Shown: positions 31,380 through 45,968 of the stretch, piece by piece
Position numbering within the stretch: position 1 is the first letter of the stretch
Layout of the letters: every line of letters begins with the position of its first letter
Origin: Pseudomonas sp. RC10
GTDB lineage: Bacteria > Pseudomonadota > Gammaproteobacteria > Pseudomonadales > Pseudomonadaceae
NCBI RefSeq assembly: GCF_038397775.1
Contig: NZ_CP151650.1
Span: 2,666,001-2,730,000, forward strand
Length of the DNA: 64,000 nt
Direction: 5' to 3'
Notes under the pieces: model-generated
Told to the model about the DNA's origin: nothing
The model's database searches: none
What the model saw: the letters and a program-made list of their open reading frames with translations, nothing else
Made by a program: the position numbers and the translations under genes

Positions 31380-32477
31380 TTATTCTTTTCTGGCGTCGAA
31401 GAAGAGGTCATTTTTGACGCGTATCGGGCTGGTGTAAGTGGCATCAGCCACTAAAGACCTGTCCATGAAGTCCCTAATAAAGCCTGCCGTTTCTCGGGCG
31501 TGCGTTTCCAGCACAAACCGCCCGGTGTCGAGCAGCCTGACTTCAGAGTGAGGCATATTGCGCACATAGGCCTCTACGCCGAAGAGACTGAAGAACGTAT
31601 CATGACGTCCCCAGATAATAAGCAAAGGGGGCCGCTTATCACTGAGGTACTTTTGCACCGTCGGGTAATCCGTCAGCAGGTTTTTATAGTCCCTTATCAG
31701 GTCTAACTGGATGTCCCTCGCCCGGGGTAGCGACAAATAGTAATTATCCAGGTTGTAACCGTCGGGTGGAAGTTGTCCCGATTCGGTGTCCGCGCCGTAA
31801 TGTTGCTTTCTGATATTTTCCGGCAGTAACGACGTCGCACATACTTCACGGTTATGCGCGGTGGGGCTCTCCCAGTACGCCTGCCAAGGGGATAACGAAG
31901 CGCCCAGGCCCTCTTTATAAAGGTTGCCGTTTTGACCGATGAGGGTGTTCACCTTATCGGGGTACATCATGGCCAGTTTAAAAGCGATTGAACAGCCGTA
32001 GTCGAAACCATAAATGGACAGTTTGTCGAGTTTCAGCGCGCTGATAAAATCAGCCATGGTATTGACGATGTTTTCATAGCTGTATGTATAGTCGTCGGCA
32101 CTCAATGGCCGTGAATTACCGAAGCCGGGCAGGTCGGGGGCAATCAGGTGGTACCTCGTGGCGAGGAGTGGAAACAGATTGCGGAACATGTGGCTGGCTG
32201 ACGGAAATCCGTGCAAAAGCAAAATCGTCGGGCCATTCCGGGGCCCGACCTCCCGATAAAATATATCGACACTGCCGATCCGTCGGGTGCAAAACGCTAC
32301 CCTGAGTGACTCGTCAAATGGGAGGCGCGGCACCACCGGCACATAATGTTGGTTCAGTTCCCGTGCGGAGGTAAGGCTGTAGCCCGCCGCGCCGACCGCG
32401 CACGCCGTTGATGCAATTAAAAAAGTTCGCCGATTGAATGCGCTGGCGTTTCCGTAAGTCGGGCTTTCTTCATTCAT
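31380..32477 (-). CDS. Exported alpha/beta hydrolase, catalytic His replaced
   Basis: The protein (365 residues from ATG 32477) has a Tat-type signal (NRRTFLIASTACAVGAAGYS), then an epoxide-hydrolase/haloalkane-dehalogenase-like fold: oxyanion motif LLHGFPSASH, PDLPGFGNS, nucleophile elbow GFDYGCS with Asp, and acid residue in WGRHDTFF. The catalytic histidine block reads LLDTGRFVLETHA; in the paralog at 42.4 kb the same block is LLDTGHFALETHA, so His is Arg. Hydrolysis of the covalent ester intermediate should fail. The gap to the old-yellow-enzyme gene is a shared divergent promoter. Confidence 0.86.
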   Translation of the reverse strand: MNEESPTYGNASAFNRRTFLIASTACAVGAAGYSLTSARELNQHYVPVVPRLPFDESLRVAFCTRRIGSVDIFYREVGPRNGPTILLLHGFPSASHMFRNLFPLLATRYHLIAPDLPGFGNSRPLSADDYTYSYENIVNTMADFISALKLDKLSIYGFDYGCSIAFKLAMMYPDKVNTLIGQNGNLYKEGLGASLSPWQAYWESPTAHNREVCATSLLPENIRKQHYGADTESGQLPPDGYNLDNYYLSLPRARDIQLDLIRDYKNLLTDYPTVQKYLSDKRPPLLIIWGRHDTFFSLFGVEAYVRNMPHSEVRLLDTGRFVLETHARETAGFIRDFMDRSLVADATYTSPIRVKNDLFFDARKE

Positions 32478-40858: not shown

Positions 40859-40894
40859 GGATACATCACCCTGGCTTCGAATTTGTCAGCAAGG

Positions 40895-40938
40895 GTAACC
40901 ATTCACCTGTACCTTGACAAGTTACGCCTGGAGTAACC
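40895..40938 (-). promoter_or_regulatory. CGNR1 promoter with repeated GGTTAC half-sites
   Basis: Read on the minus strand: GGTTAC, seven bases, GTAACTTGTCAA, 13 bases, GGTTAC. TTGTCA fits a -35 box and TACCCT lies 17 bases downstream at the -10 position. The GTAACTTGTCAA-N13-GGTTA block recurs at 45181-45211 with identical spacing, suggesting a common operator. Confidence 0.65.
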
Positions 40939-41009
40939 TTCTGGCATATATTGGTCGGGTTATGCCGGTTAACGCGTTTTGCTCCAGAGGCGATCCTTGA
41001 ACAGTCAAT

Positions 41010-41924
41010 CTAATGAGAGGCGTCCAAGTCATGGGCGGTGTGAAATACGTTCTGGGTAATGAAGTGCTCAACGAACGCTTTTGCAGCGGGCTTGGCCGCG
41101 GCGCCTCCCGGGAATATTGCGTATACCGTCACGGTTGCCAGCGACCAGTCGCTGAGCACCTCAACGAGTGTTCCGTCCGCCCGCTCTTTCTTGCAGGCCC
41201 AGCAACTGGTCATCGCGATCCCCAGGCCATGTATCGCCGCGCTCATCGCTACGTCGTTGATGTTCACTGCAATCTTGGGTTCGATGCGTACCGTCTGCTG
41301 GTTGCCGTCTTTTTCAAAACTCCAGGAGCCCGCGGTAAGACCCGGCGGCCCACCGATCATCGTGTGATGCAGCAGGTCGCGGGGAGACTTGGGGAGTCCG
41401 TGTGCTTTAACGTAGTCGGGGGAGGCCACTAACATGCGGCGGGCGGCACCCACGACCCGGGTGGTCGCTGTCGAATCGGCCAACGGCCCGCACCGAATCG
41501 CGACATCAACACCGTCTTTAATCAAATCCTGTCGTGCATCGTCCAGCACCAGGTTTACGCAAAGAGAAGGGTGTTGCTCTCGAAAATTCGACAACATCGG
41601 CACCACTTCGCGCAACGCCATGCCCGAGGTAAGACCGATTCGCAGCGTTCCGCAGAGCTCACCGTTGCCTTTGACCGCTTGATTGGCATCCTCGAACTGC
41701 ACGATGAGAGGCTCGATACGCTGCAGGTATTCATGACCCGCTTCGGTGAGTTCGACGGCGCGCGTGGTTCGAATAAAAAGCTTGGCGCCGATGTCGTGCT
41801 CCAGTGACGCAATGATGCGCGAAACAGATGATTGTGCTAACCCGACTTCTTTGGCAGCCACCGAAAAACTTTTGTGCCGTGCGACACACAAGAAGAGCTT
41901 ATAGGTGAGTAGGAATGTATTCAT
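41010..41924 (-). CDS. LysR-family regulator
   Basis: This 304-residue protein has a standard LysR HTH (MNTFLLTYKLFLCVARHKSF, VGLAQSSVSRIIASLEH) and a DmlR/AaeR-like effector domain (VNLVLDDARQDLIKDGVDVA). It is clearly less similar to the twin LysR proteins than they are to each other. A 12-base perfect inverted repeat lies 39 bases upstream of its start. The gene transcribed away from its 5' side is missing, because the right-hand gap holds only an orphan promoter-like block. Confidence 0.92.
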   Translation of the reverse strand: MNTFLLTYKLFLCVARHKSFSVAAKEVGLAQSSVSRIIASLEHDIGAKLFIRTTRAVELTEAGHEYLQRIEPLIVQFEDANQAVKGNGELCGTLRIGLTSGMALREVVPMLSNFREQHPSLCVNLVLDDARQDLIKDGVDVAIRCGPLADSTATTRVVGAARRMLVASPDYVKAHGLPKSPRDLLHHTMIGGPPGLTAGSWSFEKDGNQQTVRIEPKIAVNINDVAMSAAIHGLGIAMTSCWACKKERADGTLVEVLSDWSLATVTVYAIFPGGAAAKPAAKAFVEHFITQNVFHTAHDLDASH

Positions 41925-41962
41925 GCCACTGACGTCATATCTTGCCGCTCGATTGGACTGAT

Positions 41963-41990
41963 CTATAAGGCTACCGCTGTAGCCTTATAG
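41963..41990. promoter_or_regulatory. Perfect 12-bp inverted repeat upstream of LysR
   Basis: CTATAAGGCTAC and GTAGCCTTATAG flank CGCT, 39-66 bases before the LysR start. It is a candidate operator (autoregulation) or a leader hairpin. Confidence 0.55.
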
Positions 41991-42107
41991 CACCGTTGTG
42001 CCTGCCGGGTGTTTAAGAGCGGCAATATTTATTCCCCTCAGGCATGACTGACGCTCTCAGACTCATACTAAGTTGTCTAAAAGCGAACGGAATTTGCCAT
42101 ATTGTGG

Positions 42108-42138
42108 CTAACCTGTCAAAAGCATTTCATCGGGTTGT
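42108..42138 (+). promoter_or_regulatory. Third copy of the CGNR-type promoter block
   Basis: CTAACCTGTCAA, 13 bases, GGTTGT aligns with GTAACTTGTCAA-N13-GGTTAT at 45181-45211, and the spacer also matches (AAGCATTT versus ATGCATTT). No gene follows it rightward before the 3' end of the leftward hydrolase gene at 42434. Confidence 0.55.
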
Positions 42139-42433
42139 TTTAAATGGTAGAAGTGCATGAATATTTATAATGTAACCCGGTAAGGCTTTTTATTTAGGTT
42201 ATTCCTGCCGGGGTTGGCAGGTGCGGGCGCCGTCAGGCCTGAATGACTGCATCAGACGGCTTTAATAAGTAGGCTTGGATAAGTAACGGTACGAAGTATC
42301 AAGGGCGACACGGTGAGTACGCCTGTCAGCGAAGGCGGCAGAGCATGAAGGCAGCGCCGCGTTAAAGGGCTTGGTCTGACCGGATTGGCCTCTCAACGCA
42401 GCGCCGCGAATAAAACAGCGAGAAAAGGATTTA

Positions 42434-43336
42434 TCAGTTAATGAGTAATTCTTCGGGGGCCGCACCAAACACTTCAATAATACGGTTTGCGATGTGCTCG
42501 GCATGGGTTTCCAAAGCAAAGTGTCCGGTGTCCAGCAGTTCAACGATTGCGTTTGGATTATCTCGTTTGAATGCCTCTGCTCCCGGAGGGATGAAGAAAG
42601 GATCGTTCTTTCCCCAAATGGCAAGGATGGGCAGCTTTGACGTTCTAAAGTATTCCTGGAAGGCAGGGTAGAGCGTCAAGTTATTTGCATAGTCCAGGAA
42701 AAGATCGAGCTGGATGTCTTTATTTCCGGGGCGGTCCATCAGTAAGGCATCGAGGGTATAAGACTCAGGCGCGATGGATTCAAGGGCATGGACACCGTGT
42801 TCGTACTGCCATTTGGTTCCGGCCAGGTGCAAAATCGCGTCAGCGATAGCGTTCCTGTTCTCGGCAGACGGCGTTTCCCAATACGCCCGGATGGGCGCCC
42901 AGGCGTCCCCCAGTCCTTCAAGATAAGCATTGCCGTTTTGTGTGACCAGACCGGTCACCCGTTCCGGATGCTTCAATGCCAGCCTCAGGCCTGTGGGGGC
43001 GCCATAGTCGAACACGTACATTGCGTAGCTTTCCAGACCTACTGCATTCACGAACTCGCCGAGGGTATGCGCCAGTGCGTCGAATGTGTAGGTGTAGTTC
43101 CTTTCAGCGGGTACCTCGGTGAAACCAAAGCCTGGCAGATCCGGCGCAATAATATGAAAGTTATCCGCCAGCAATGGAATCAAGTTGCGGAACTGGTGGG
43201 ATGAACTGGGAAAACCGTGAAGCAACAGCAGGGTCGGGAAAGACGGCTCACCCGCTTCCCGATAAAAAACACGCACGCCGTCGGCGTCAGCGAATTTATA
43301 GTGAGTGGTGGTGATGTTGCTGCTTGGAAAATGCAT
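42434..43336 (-). CDS. Alpha/beta hydrolase, epoxide-hydrolase-like, intact triad
   Basis: The 300-residue cytosolic enzyme has oxyanion motif LLHGFPSSSH, PDLPGFGFTEV, nucleophile Asp in VFDYGAPTG, acid Asp in WGKNDPFF and catalytic His in LLDTGHFALETHA. The Asp nucleophile places it with epoxide hydrolases and haloalkane dehalogenases. AAAGGAG precedes the ATG at 43336; the longer frame to 43498 is not needed. It is the third gene of a leftward group with the NTF2-fold gene and another hydrolase. Confidence 0.91.
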   Translation of the reverse strand: MHFPSSNITTTHYKFADADGVRVFYREAGEPSFPTLLLLHGFPSSSHQFRNLIPLLADNFHIIAPDLPGFGFTEVPAERNYTYTFDALAHTLGEFVNAVGLESYAMYVFDYGAPTGLRLALKHPERVTGLVTQNGNAYLEGLGDAWAPIRAYWETPSAENRNAIADAILHLAGTKWQYEHGVHALESIAPESYTLDALLMDRPGNKDIQLDLFLDYANNLTLYPAFQEYFRTSKLPILAIWGKNDPFFIPPGAEAFKRDNPNAIVELLDTGHFALETHAEHIANRIIEVFGAAPEELLIN

Positions 43337-43525
43337 GGGTTTTACTCCTTTGACCGTGGGTGGAGTGGGTCCGAACGGGCAGCCTCCAGCGCGCTGGAAA
43401 GTTGCCCGTCCATGGTGGGTATATCGTTGATCGTTCCGTCGGGGCGTAAACGTATTGCTCGCACGGGGGCTTGAAACAAATACACTTTCTTCGCCCATCA
43501 GGCGCGGTACGTGCCTTGCGAGGTG

Positions 43526-43945
43526 TTAGTGCATGGCCTCAAGCACCTTCGCGGTATCCGTGTACATCACAAAACTTGAAAGTTTGCCGTCTGTGACGTT
43601 CCAAAGATGCGCAAACGGTGCAGACATGTATTTGCCTGTCGCTTTGTAAGTGCCGGAATAAACCCCGAACGACACCACCCGTGATCCCTGCACAATGAAA
43701 TCGTCGGCGGTGGCTGCAAAGTCTGTCCAGTCGGTGGCCAATCGCTTGAGCAAATTATCCAGTACGGCCTGAGGGCCGACCCACGTTCCGCTGTAATAAG
43801 GAAAGCGCTCAGCTTCTGTCCATTGCACCTGGTCATGAAGGAGGCTGAGTACGGCCGGCACATCCCCGCGTCCCAAGGCGTTATAAAAACCACGCACTGT
43901 TTCTGAGGGGCTAACGTCGTTATCTGCGCTCTGAATATTTGACAT
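43526..43945 (-). CDS. NTF2-fold (SnoaL-like) protein
   Basis: The 139-residue protein has the conical NTF2/ketosteroid-isomerase-like fold: VRGFYNALGRGDVPAVLSLL, then VQWTEAERFPYYSGTWVGPQ and PFAHLWNVTDGKLSSFVMYT. Members include SnoaL cyclases and limonene-epoxide hydrolases, but catalysis cannot be read from this sequence. The ATG at 43945 has GGAGGA upstream. It lies between two Asp-nucleophile hydrolases on the same strand, suggesting a shared pathway. Confidence 0.85.
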   Translation of the reverse strand: MSNIQSADNDVSPSETVRGFYNALGRGDVPAVLSLLHDQVQWTEAERFPYYSGTWVGPQAVLDNLLKRLATDWTDFAATADDFIVQGSRVVSFGVYSGTYKATGKYMSAPFAHLWNVTDGKLSSFVMYTDTAKVLEAMH

Positions 43946-44023
43946 GTCATCCTCCAACTGAAAGGGCTCAATGCCCTGCATCACGTTTATCCCGCGGCTG
44001 TCTCCACGCACACCTGTGACGCC

Positions 44024-45121
44024 TTACTTGAGTGTGCGGTGAAGGAAGTGTTTGACCAGGCGAGAGATTTCTTCAGGGTCGTCCTGGATCGCAAAGTGGC
44101 CCGCGTCAAGAATGTGCGCCTCGGCTTTCGGGACGTCACGTTGAAAGGCAGCCACCTCATCCACCTGGAATGAGGGGTCGTACTTGCCCCACAGGATCAA
44201 GGTTCGAGGCTGATGTTCCCGCAACCAGGCGCCCCATGCAGGGTAACTGGCGACGTTAGTGCGGTAGTCGTAGAAGAGGTCCGTCTGAATATCGGCCTGC
44301 CCTGGTCGTGACAGAAAACCGAACTCGTCCACCCAGCGATCAGGATCGACCGACTCAGGGTTGGGGTTGGAGCCGATATGGCGTTGCTTTGTTGTCGCCA
44401 GTGAAAGGAATGCCCCGCGTAGCGCCTGCTCGTTTGCTGCGCGATTGGCCCAGAATTCGCGACGCTTGACCCACAGTGGGCCAAGTCCTTCCTCATGAGA
44501 CACGGCGTTCTGAACGATGATTGCCTGGACGCGCTCCGGATGAGCGACGGCGAGGCGCATGCCGATTGGACCGCCGTAGTCCTGCATGACAAGCACGTAA
44601 CGTTTCAGGCCGAGCGTCTCAGTGAAGTGCTCCACGATGGTGGCGAGATGATCGAACGTGTATTGGAAGGCGCTTGCGCTGGGGGCGTCGCTGTGACCGA
44701 AGCCTGGGTAATCCGGCGCAATGACGTGGTATTGAGTCGACAGGCTTCTCAATAAAGGCTCGTACATTCGTGACGACGATGGAAATCCATGCAGCATCAG
44801 CAGTGTAGGCGCGTTACTTGGACCGGATTCACGGTAAAAGATCGAGAGTCCGTCCACCTGCACCGTGCGGTAGTGGACGGGGTTTGTTTCCGCGTTGGTT
44901 GCTGCATGGCTGGAGTCACTGAGGGACATGGCTGCAATCACCCCTAGGGCGCAAAGAAAGGTATGAAAGACAGAGCGGAGCGTGGACCGCTGTCGCGTTG
45001 GTTTTGCATGAAACAAGGATAGAACGCGTGGGCTAAACCCATGTGGGCGACGGTGTGAGCGGTACGGTTCACACCCATTCGCAAGGACTGGAACGGAAAG
45101 GACAGGATTGGCATGCATCAT
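44024..45121 (-). CDS. Exported alpha/beta hydrolase, epoxide-hydrolase/dehalogenase-like
   Basis: The 365-residue protein has a long basic N-region and a hydrophobic segment (SVFHTFLCALGVIAAMSL, about residues 50-67) ending near SHAAT, consistent with export. The hydrolase fold has LMLHGFPSSSRM, PDYPGFGHS, nucleophile Asp in VMQDYGGPIG, acid Asp in WGKYDPSF and His in LDAGHFAIQDD, so the triad is complete. It is divergent from CGNR2 with overlapping regulatory sequence between them, making CGNR2 its likely regulator. A shorter start closer to the hydrophobic segment is possible. Confidence 0.88.
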   Translation of the reverse strand: MMHANPVLSVPVLANGCEPYRSHRRPHGFSPRVLSLFHAKPTRQRSTLRSVFHTFLCALGVIAAMSLSDSSHAATNAETNPVHYRTVQVDGLSIFYRESGPSNAPTLLMLHGFPSSSRMYEPLLRSLSTQYHVIAPDYPGFGHSDAPSASAFQYTFDHLATIVEHFTETLGLKRYVLVMQDYGGPIGMRLAVAHPERVQAIIVQNAVSHEEGLGPLWVKRREFWANRAANEQALRGAFLSLATTKQRHIGSNPNPESVDPDRWVDEFGFLSRPGQADIQTDLFYDYRTNVASYPAWGAWLREHQPRTLILWGKYDPSFQVDEVAAFQRDVPKAEAHILDAGHFAIQDDPEEISRLVKHFLHRTLK

Positions 45122-45137
45122 GGGTTCCTCTTGGCTT

Positions 45138-45214
45138 GGTAACCTCTAAATTTGTGTCAGTGAGGTTATCTTCTGGTTGAGTAACTTGTCAAATGCATTT
45201 GGTGAGGTTATATT
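45138..45214. promoter_or_regulatory. Divergent hydrolase/CGNR2 promoter-operator region
   Basis: For CGNR2 on the plus strand, TTGTCA (45186-45191) and TATATT (45209-45214), 17 bases apart, form a good sigma-70 promoter. It is framed by GTAACTTGTCAA and, 13 bases on, GGTTAT. Further half-sites GGTAACCTC (45138-45146) and GAGGTTAT (45162-45169) lie on the hydrolase side. Confidence 0.7.
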
Positions 45215-45248: not shown

Positions 45249-45968
45249 ATGGTTATTCCGCAAAATACGACGACGGACAGCGCAACTGCTGATATCCGTT
45301 ATGACGGTCCTGTAGAGGTTACGTCTTGGGCCGTGGCCCCCGTGCTTGCGGAGTCCACTGCCCTGGATTTTCTGAACACCTCCCTGTACTCCACCGGGCG
45401 GCAGATTGATTGGCTCGGAAGTGGCGCGGCTCTGGTTGACTGGTTGCAACAAGTCCAGTTGTTGAGTGAGCAGGAGGCGCTTGAAGTGCGTCGAATGGCT
45501 CGCCTGGAAGAGCTTGATACGGTGGCTGCGGGAGCGAGGCAGCTCAGGGACTGGTTTCGCTCCTTTGTCCTTCGATATCACGGACAAGCTCTGACGGGTG
45601 ACGCGCTTCATGACTTGGCTCCAATCAATGATCTGTTGCGCGCCGATGCGCTTCATCTTCAGATTCACGTTCGCCCCCCACCCTCAGATGTCGGCTCGAC
45701 GGTCAGTCCGTTGCACGGTGTCTGGAAACGGCGCGAGATCTCTTCTGGCGCGTTGATGTACGTGTTGGGCGAGGCGGTGGCACATGCCATCGCCTCGCTG
45801 AGCTTTGCGAATATCAAGTACTGCCAGGGCCGCAACTGTTCGCTGGTATTCCTCGATAAAACATCTCGCCTTTCTCGACGCTGGTGCAGCATGGCCACGT
45901 GCGGCAATCGAGCAAAGCAGGCCTCCCATCGCAAAAAACAGCAAAAAAACCCGCCTCACGCGTCGTGA
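45249..45968 (+). CDS. CGNR zinc-finger regulator 2
   Basis: The 239-residue paralog of the 40.2 kb regulator has an ABATE domain (STALDFLNTSLYSTGRQIDW) and CGNR zinc finger (YCQGRNCSLVF, WCSMATCGNRAKQASHR). I start at ATG 45249, preceded by AAGGGCAGGG; an in-frame start at 45177 would lie upstream of the promoter -10 box and is unlikely. It probably controls the divergent hydrolase/NTF2-fold/hydrolase group and itself. It converges on the chemoreceptor gene with one base between stops. Confidence 0.9.
   Translation: MVIPQNTTTDSATADIRYDGPVEVTSWAVAPVLAESTALDFLNTSLYSTGRQIDWLGSGAALVDWLQQVQLLSEQEALEVRRMARLEELDTVAAGARQLRDWFRSFVLRYHGQALTGDALHDLAPINDLLRADALHLQIHVRPPPSDVGSTVSPLHGVWKRREISSGALMYVLGEAVAHAIASLSFANIKYCQGRNCSLVFLDKTSRLSRRWCSMATCGNRAKQASHRKKQQKNPPHAS

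Follow-up and report, generated by a model that had tools for sequence, protein, structure and literature searches.

Introduction

In TetR-type autoregulated repressors, the regulator and target genes are divergently transcribed, operators lie over both promoters, and a dimer binds an inverted repeat. Here we describe a 31 bp inverted repeat (dyad) located upstream of two CGNR zinc finger regulator genes, CGNR-A and CGNR-B, in a 64,000-nucleotide stretch of the Pseudomonas sp. RC10 genome (NZ_CP151650.1, positions 2,666,001 to 2,730,000; hereafter the window). The CGNR loci appear to be TetR-like in organization: the regulator and target genes are divergent, operators are predicted to cover both promoters, and a dimer would occupy each inverted repeat. 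However, they differ in that the regulators have a treble-clef zinc finger and not a helix-turn-helix, the dyad is 31 bp long with a 21 bp gap, and a single TTGTCAA/TTGACA stretch is a possible -35 element in both directions.

The only match to the family profile in the PDB is 3h0n (Jann_2411; E 2.3e-14), a member of the same two-domain family as the window regulators (PF07336 plus PF11706). Jann_2411 consists of an ABATE domain and a CGNR finger and is described as a likely dimer with predicted DNA binding and a suggested ligand-sensing role for the ABATE domain; the family is likened to LacI and TetR as ligand-controlled dimers (PMC2954205). The portion of that article covered here names no DNA site or target (the word 'promoter' occurs 0 times), and the genomic context it suggests is stress genes, not alpha/beta hydrolases (PMC2954205). 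Among the literature matches listed for CGNR, zf-CGNR, ABATE or DUF1470 and for GTAAC/GGTTAC operators there is no operator or tested target, the matches comprising the structure paper and apparent passing mentions. CGNR/ABATE proteins are widespread, yet they are without a DNA site or tested target among these matches; the zf-CGNR domain is present in 25 of 119 Pseudomonas genomes and, in the phylum of a Streptomyces, in 42 of 100. With a precise operator and a recurrent set of target genes, the function, ligand and recognition code of the family would become directly testable.

Paired dyads at the two CGNR genes

The products of CGNR-A and CGNR-B both contain PF07336 (N-terminal ABATE) and PF11706 (C-terminal finger), with all four matches above the curated cut-off, and alignment reveals the four zinc cysteines and the CGNR motif in each (CEGAAC..RRWCSMAVCGNR and CQGRNC..RRWCSMATCGNR). 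An earlier note on this DNA reported a common block upstream of both genes, and GTAACTTGTCAA-N13-GGTTAY is indeed found there without mismatch (Table 1); allowing up to three mismatches there are four matches in the window, compared with 0.02 expected from 100 dinucleotide shuffles. Each copy is an inverted repeat, RTAAC-N21-GTTAY, spanning 31 bp. This repeat occurs exactly five times in the window, always within 40895-45211, while 100 first-order random windows contained a mean of 0.03 and at most 1. The extra half-sites that had also been reported build a second dyad at each locus, so that there is a regulator-proximal dyad (O2) and a distal one (O1), 42 bp apart at CGNR-B and, roughly similarly, 38 bp apart at CGNR-A. 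The proposed GTAAC/GGTTAC element is narrowed here to a dyad whose gap is fixed at 21 bp (20 bp in some groups) and which often occurs as two copies 41 or 42 bp apart.

Putative promoter elements can be read by eye near the dyads, with predicted start sites. The reported TTGTCA with a 17-base spacing is readable as TTGTCA-N17-TATATT at CGNR-B and as TTGTCA-N17-TACCCT at CGNR-A, although the second of these -10 elements is weak.

We propose, with a probability of about 0.8, that the dyad is the operator of CGNR (ABATE plus treble-clef zinc finger) regulators, through which they would repress their own gene and a hydrolase gene. Comparison of the sites strongly suggests that CGNR proteins bind the dyad, and suggests repression with moderate confidence. 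A CGNR dimer would occupy each 31 bp dyad with one zinc finger per RTAACYKTYAAA-like half-site, the half-site centres being 26 bp apart. The gap between regulator and hydrolase genes contains two dyads separated by about four helical turns. O2 is predicted to span the regulator -35 (TTGTCA) and -10, with half-sites overlapping both elements, and O1 to lie over the divergent hydrolase promoter, whose putative -35, TTGACA, is obtained by reading that TTGTCAA stretch on the opposite strand. Bound dimers would shut both promoters, and a ligand at the ABATE domain, perhaps a hydrolase substrate, would release the regulator; such a compact two-way promoter could act as a sensor.

Conservation of the dyad beyond the genus

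In keeping with the earlier note, the block is enriched upstream of other CGNR genes. Eighty named loci, picked by protein similarity only (the best 80 of at least 521), include representatives of Rhizobium, Bradyrhizobium, Paraburkholderia, Sphingomonas, Streptomyces, Nocardia, Eremiobacterota and a Planctomycetales bin. Seventy-eight of these have a dyad in the 300 bp preceding the CGNR gene, and 65 have two or more dyads. When gaps of 8-35 bp were scanned, N21 gave 145 matches and every other gap 0 or 1, and dyad density is 6.04 per kb upstream of CGNR genes versus 0.042 per kb in the remainder of these loci. Measured as everted pairs, dyads are separated by N11 46 times and by N10 18 times, corresponding to dyads 42 or 41 bp apart. 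Seventy of the 80 loci were aligned on the near dyad, which was chosen by its half-sites plus YTGTCAA and is hence fixed at these positions by construction. In the second dyad, which played no part in the choice, the RTAAC/GTTAY positions are kept in 60-96% of rows, and gaps and flanks mostly in 30-50%. A role of TTGTCAA as promoter only was considered; inner bases of the dyad are partly kept in O1 too, and operator and promoter roles seem to be overlaid in this stretch. In one Nocardia genome (G631), C3 and C34 carry two CGNR/hydrolase loci with identical dyad letters, reflecting a recent duplication or an assembly copy.

The same operator could instead serve a CGNR activator, or a protein that represses its own gene and activates the hydrolase, with O1 as an activator site upstream of the regulator -35. 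The dyad pair does put one site upstream of each -35 in turn, its regular spacing is also compatible with activation, and the -10 at CGNR-A is weak. However, the near dyad has YTGTCAA at the expected -35 place in 70 of the 80 named loci, 37 of which also have T as the sixth base of the -10, and the span from -35 to -10 is a typical repressor position; moreover, some hydrolase promoters have single dyads. Activation is unlikely, if still worth serious consideration.

Distribution among CGNR proteins

A profile was built from 18 hand-chosen CGNR proteins and a threshold set at 165 bits. The strict dyad (N20 or N21) is present at 114 of 118 proteins scoring at least 165 bits, the window-like group, versus 5 of 61 scoring below. 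By source, it accompanies 3/4 CGNR genes of the RC10 genome, 18/28 of the genus sample, 16/30 of a phylum and class sample, 78/80 of the named loci and 4/7 plasmid loci; a remnant for which no protein was obtained (L005) is left out of these counts. In a quick maximum-likelihood tree of 174 CGNR proteins, the dyad occurs in 113 of the 116 members of one clade (Shimodaira-Hasegawa-like approximate likelihood ratio test support 95) versus 6 of 58 proteins outside it, and the dyad label needs 7 changes on the tree versus a mean of 47 with shuffled labels, although several long branches make deep placements unsure. CGNR-A (L002) and CGNR-B (L004) both fall inside the clade, L004 on a long branch.

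The three exceptions within the clade are of different kinds. L180 has a dyad with one mismatch. L167 has none at the CGNR gene, with dyads before two hydrolase-like genes 1.0 and 1.9 kb away, and at L174 the CGNR gene is behind a same-strand hydrolase gene (a likely operon) that is itself preceded by a one-mismatch dyad. L086, placed outside the clade, also has a one-mismatch site. A useful comparison is the CGAKEK/CGSREK branch of zf-CGNR (L003, L030, L033, L036, L038, L041-L045), which shares the Pfam domain and the genus and has one copy in the RC10 genome, but has an altered tetrapeptide and the strict dyad at 0 of 10 loci.

More distant CGNR branches

A separate rhizobial branch (L266-L295) has a TAAC-N20-GTTA dyad in 29 of 30 loci, starting ~38 to 45 bp before the aligned start; at the thirtieth locus the alignment began inside the gene. 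Four of the 30 were already in the earlier sample, and among the newly sampled loci the dyad is present in 25/25. The half-sites are mostly TAACTGG or TAACTTG (MTAACTKG-type). Across 179 upstream regions, the core TAAC-N19/N20/N21-GTTA is found in 3, 33 and 111, respectively, with N10 in 7, N12 in 6 and no more than 2 for any remaining gap between 10 and 32. In control windows of equal size, the TAAC-GTTA core is present in 1/177 and 0/179. The core occurs at 15 of the 61 low-scoring proteins, compared with 5 for strict RTAAC. It is present in 129 of 158 cases with a CGNR tetrapeptide in the last 90 residues versus 1 of 21 without it, and among the 61 low-scoring proteins alone in 15/41 versus 0/20, although many of these proteins are relatives and neither set of counts is independent.

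The odds are about even that CGNR proteins share a DNA-reading rule across deep branches and phyla, in which two inverted TAAC-core half-sites are separated by 19 to 21 bp, outer and inner bases depend on the branch (RTAACC for the main clade, MTAACTKG for the rhizobial one), and loss of the CGNR Asn-Arg tracks loss of the site. If true, this would be a first operator code for a family of bacterial regulators with treble-clef zinc fingers, and the main clade would have a hydrolase/oxidoreductase detoxification regulon.

A sequence-blind search for 9 bp perfect arms in the low-scoring group finds palindromes above the level of shuffles, with no single preferred length. Strong upstream palindromes at distant CGNR genes include ATAACAGTCTAA..TTAGACTGTTAT (L040) and ACACCAGT- or ACACCTGT-..ACTGGTGT (L085, L219, L088), and these may be further branch-specific operators.

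Sites in the RC10 genome and in Pseudomonas

The 6.71-Mb RC10 genome contains five zf-CGNR matches. Two are in the window and one each at 3.445 Mb and 4.908 Mb; the fifth, at 1.763 Mb, is a broken remnant (G000:C1:1763250-1763506; L005, L009) consisting of a finger fragment with one stop and no full open frame. With up to one mismatch, the window-derived pattern occurs at seven places, all in three CGNR clusters, one of which surrounds the remnant. Three of the seven are upstream of the two window CGNR genes, and the others are in the gap at 42172, at the CGNR gene at 3.445 Mb, at a hydrolase gene ~2 kb from the latter, and in the 1.763-Mb gap that separates the remnant from a quinone-reductase-like gene. 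Up to two mismatches give 12 distinct places, 10 of them inside CGNR clusters (17 rows versus 7 in a control with the pattern backwards).

The intergenic dyad between the remnant and the quinone-reductase-like gene is intact even though this regulator gene is dead, suggesting that the site remains in use by another paralog. CGNR-A, CGNR-B and the 3.445-Mb paralog probably bind each other's sites. The cross-regulation of paralogs suggested in the earlier note is favoured by identical half-sites, near-identical zinc finger helices and retention of the site beside the remnant.

Across the 119 Pseudomonas genomes, the pattern with up to one mismatch is located at 27 distinct places. CGNR loci account for 14 of them, including 7 in RC10; the other 13 are unlinked and look like chance matches. 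The six places without mismatch all lie at a CGNR locus or within ~2 kb of it. The clearest Pseudomonas sites are near-perfect palindromes such as GTAACCTTTAAAGATTGAATTTGAAGGTTAC, displaying the full half-site RTAACYKTYAAA. A looser pattern, GTAACY-N18/19-GGTTAY, matched at least 65 of the 119 genomes, its backwards control also matching often, and gives no whole-genome specificity.

Candidate target genes

Neighbouring genes were identified with tblastn, the queries being proteins of the window, a hydrolase from L104 and the L009 reductase. In 70 of the 80 named loci, the divergent neighbour within 700 bp is a HydB-related hydrolase (33), another type of alpha/beta hydrolase with the motif VLVHGAWADGSSW (34) or a quinone-reductase-like gene (3); the other 10 lack any of these at that position. 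Control of the divergent hydrolase, as the earlier note had it, finds support in that dyads accompany hydrolase promoters even where the hydrolase gene is not divergent. Apart from the dyads immediately preceding CGNR genes, these loci contain 24 others, and for 22 of them an alpha/beta hydrolase or quinone-reductase-like gene begins no more than 300 bp downstream. HydB relatives are frequent partners of this CGNR clade; 77 are present in the named loci, 50 with their own dyad, 21 behind another target transcribed in the same direction and 6 with neither. Reductase genes have a dyad directly in front in 3 of 14 cases, and relatives of LysR (8), SDR (10), AraC (3), DoxX (4), CMD (2) and SnoaL (1) in these loci have one in 0 of 28.

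Twelve genomes were selected because they carry a CGNR locus of this kind. In these, GTAACY-N19-GGTTAY occurs at 24 distinct places (30 rows versus 14 in the backwards control), 20 of which have a CGNR gene within 3 kb. Of the remaining four, one is unlinked and three are near hydrolase/reductase (ADH) genes in a single Sphingomonas. A control with the gap off by one yields one place, compared with 24 for the correct gap; the Planctomycetales CGNR locus has its exact dyad 42 bp away, and the place is probably the O1 of that locus with a 22 bp gap.

The three Sphingomonas (G637) dyads, which have no CGNR gene in 3 kb, precede an SDR-like gene (identified by eye), a hydrolase gene and a reductase-containing region (L193, L202, L208), and hint at a regulon acting in trans.

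Another widespread regulator could in principle bind the dyad, with the CGNR genes being mere targets: the case for CGNR binding is built on sequence comparison, and LysR and AraC regulators are encoded nearby in the window. However, nearly all of the 24 strict sites in the 12 genomes are close to CGNR or hydrolase/ADH genes, relatives of the window LysR and AraC proteins account for just 11 matches in the 80 named loci (a screen that covered these two families), and the site follows the CGNR clade and, across branches, the CGNR tetrapeptide. This explanation is improbable. It is still harder to credit that the repeats are conserved merely as part of a recently spread regulator-gap-hydrolase cassette. 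Transfer is suggested by the presence of the clade in Streptomyces, Nocardia, a Planctomycetales bin and Eremiobacterota bins, but the second dyad has constant half-sites and a variable inner gap and flanks, the dyad accompanies hydrolase genes in other positions, and it recurs in the distant rhizobial branch with other inner bases.

Exceptions and counter-evidence

Several observations weigh against a CGNR repressor acting at the dyad. The strict dyad is found in 0 of 30 Actinomycetota loci, and the core in just 4 of these (L214, L221, L223, L235); even the core is absent from 46 of the 61 low-scoring proteins. Two exact dyads are not seen in 15 of the 80 named loci, and the CGNR-A dyads are spaced by 38 and not 42 bp. 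There is no such site at the 4.908-Mb CGNR gene, which belongs to the other branch with a CGAKEK helix. Two window dyads, at 42108 and 42172, are nearest to the LysR gene, and LysR relatives elsewhere have a dyad in 0 of 8 cases. The tally of the pattern search in 119 genomes was 31 rows versus 49 in the backwards control, so whole-genome totals do not exceed the control (other tallies are 17 versus 7 in the RC10 genome and 30 versus 14 in the 12 genomes) and it is the position of matches, not their number, that carries the signal. What the sequences establish is the site, its geometry and conservation, and its association with a CGNR clade and with target genes; binding, promoter positions, repression, ligand and cross-regulation are predictions, and the position of O1 upstream of the regulator -35 would also suit activation.

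Window genes and feature coordinates

The dyads and the genes around them are listed in Table 1.

Table 1. Coordinates of dyads, putative promoter elements and genes in the window.
Feature	Coordinates	Strand	Evidence or remark
CGNR-A, ABATE domain and CGNR zinc finger regulator, 210 amino acids	40226..40858	-	Pfam PF07336 65.9 bits, PF11706 65.3 bits
Putative -10 TACCCT (weak), CGNR-A	40892..40897	-	17 bp from -35; overlaps right half-site of O2-A
Dyad O2-A, GTAACTTGTCAA-N13-GGTTAC	40895..40925	-	Directly upstream of CGNR-A; pattern search
Putative -35 TTGTCA of CGNR-A promoter	40915..40920	-	Read by eye from the sequence
Dyad O1-A, ATAACCC..AGGTTAC	40933..40963	-	38 bp upstream of O2-A
LysR-family regulator	41010..41924	-	Pfam PF03466, PF00126; between dyad groups
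Degenerate dyad (CTAAC..GTTGT)	42108..42138	+	Between hydB 3' end and lysR 5' end
Exact dyad RTAAC-N21-GTTAY	42172..42202	-	Same hydB/lysR gap as 42108 dyad
HydB alpha/beta hydrolase (probable start 43336)	42434..43336	-	Pfam PF00561
SnoaL-like protein	43526..43945	-	PF12680
HydA alpha/beta hydrolase	44024..45121	-	PF00561; divergent from CGNR-B
Dyad O1-B, GTAACCTC..GAGGTTAT	45139..45169	+	Over expected start region of hydA promoter (predicted position)
Dyad O2-B, GTAACTTGTCAA-N13-GGTTAT	45181..45211	+	42 bp from O1-B
Putative -35 TTGTCA of CGNR-B promoter	45186..45191	+	Read by eye
TTGACA, possible -35 for hydA	45192-45187	-	Opposite strand of CGNR-B -35
Putative -10 TATATT of CGNR-B	45209..45214	+	17 bp from -35; read by eye
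CGNR-B, ABATE and CGNR zinc finger regulator, 239 amino acids from likely ATG	45249..45968	+	PF07336 62.3 bits, PF11706 57.4 bits

The TTG at 45177 was rejected as the CGNR-B start, being upstream of and inside the promoter; the ATG at 45249, after AAGGGCAGGG, is the likelier start. The nearby AraC regulator is assigned by its place and look and by relatives so named. A lone RTAAC-N20-GTTAY match at 31826-31855, outside the cluster, probably arises by chance.

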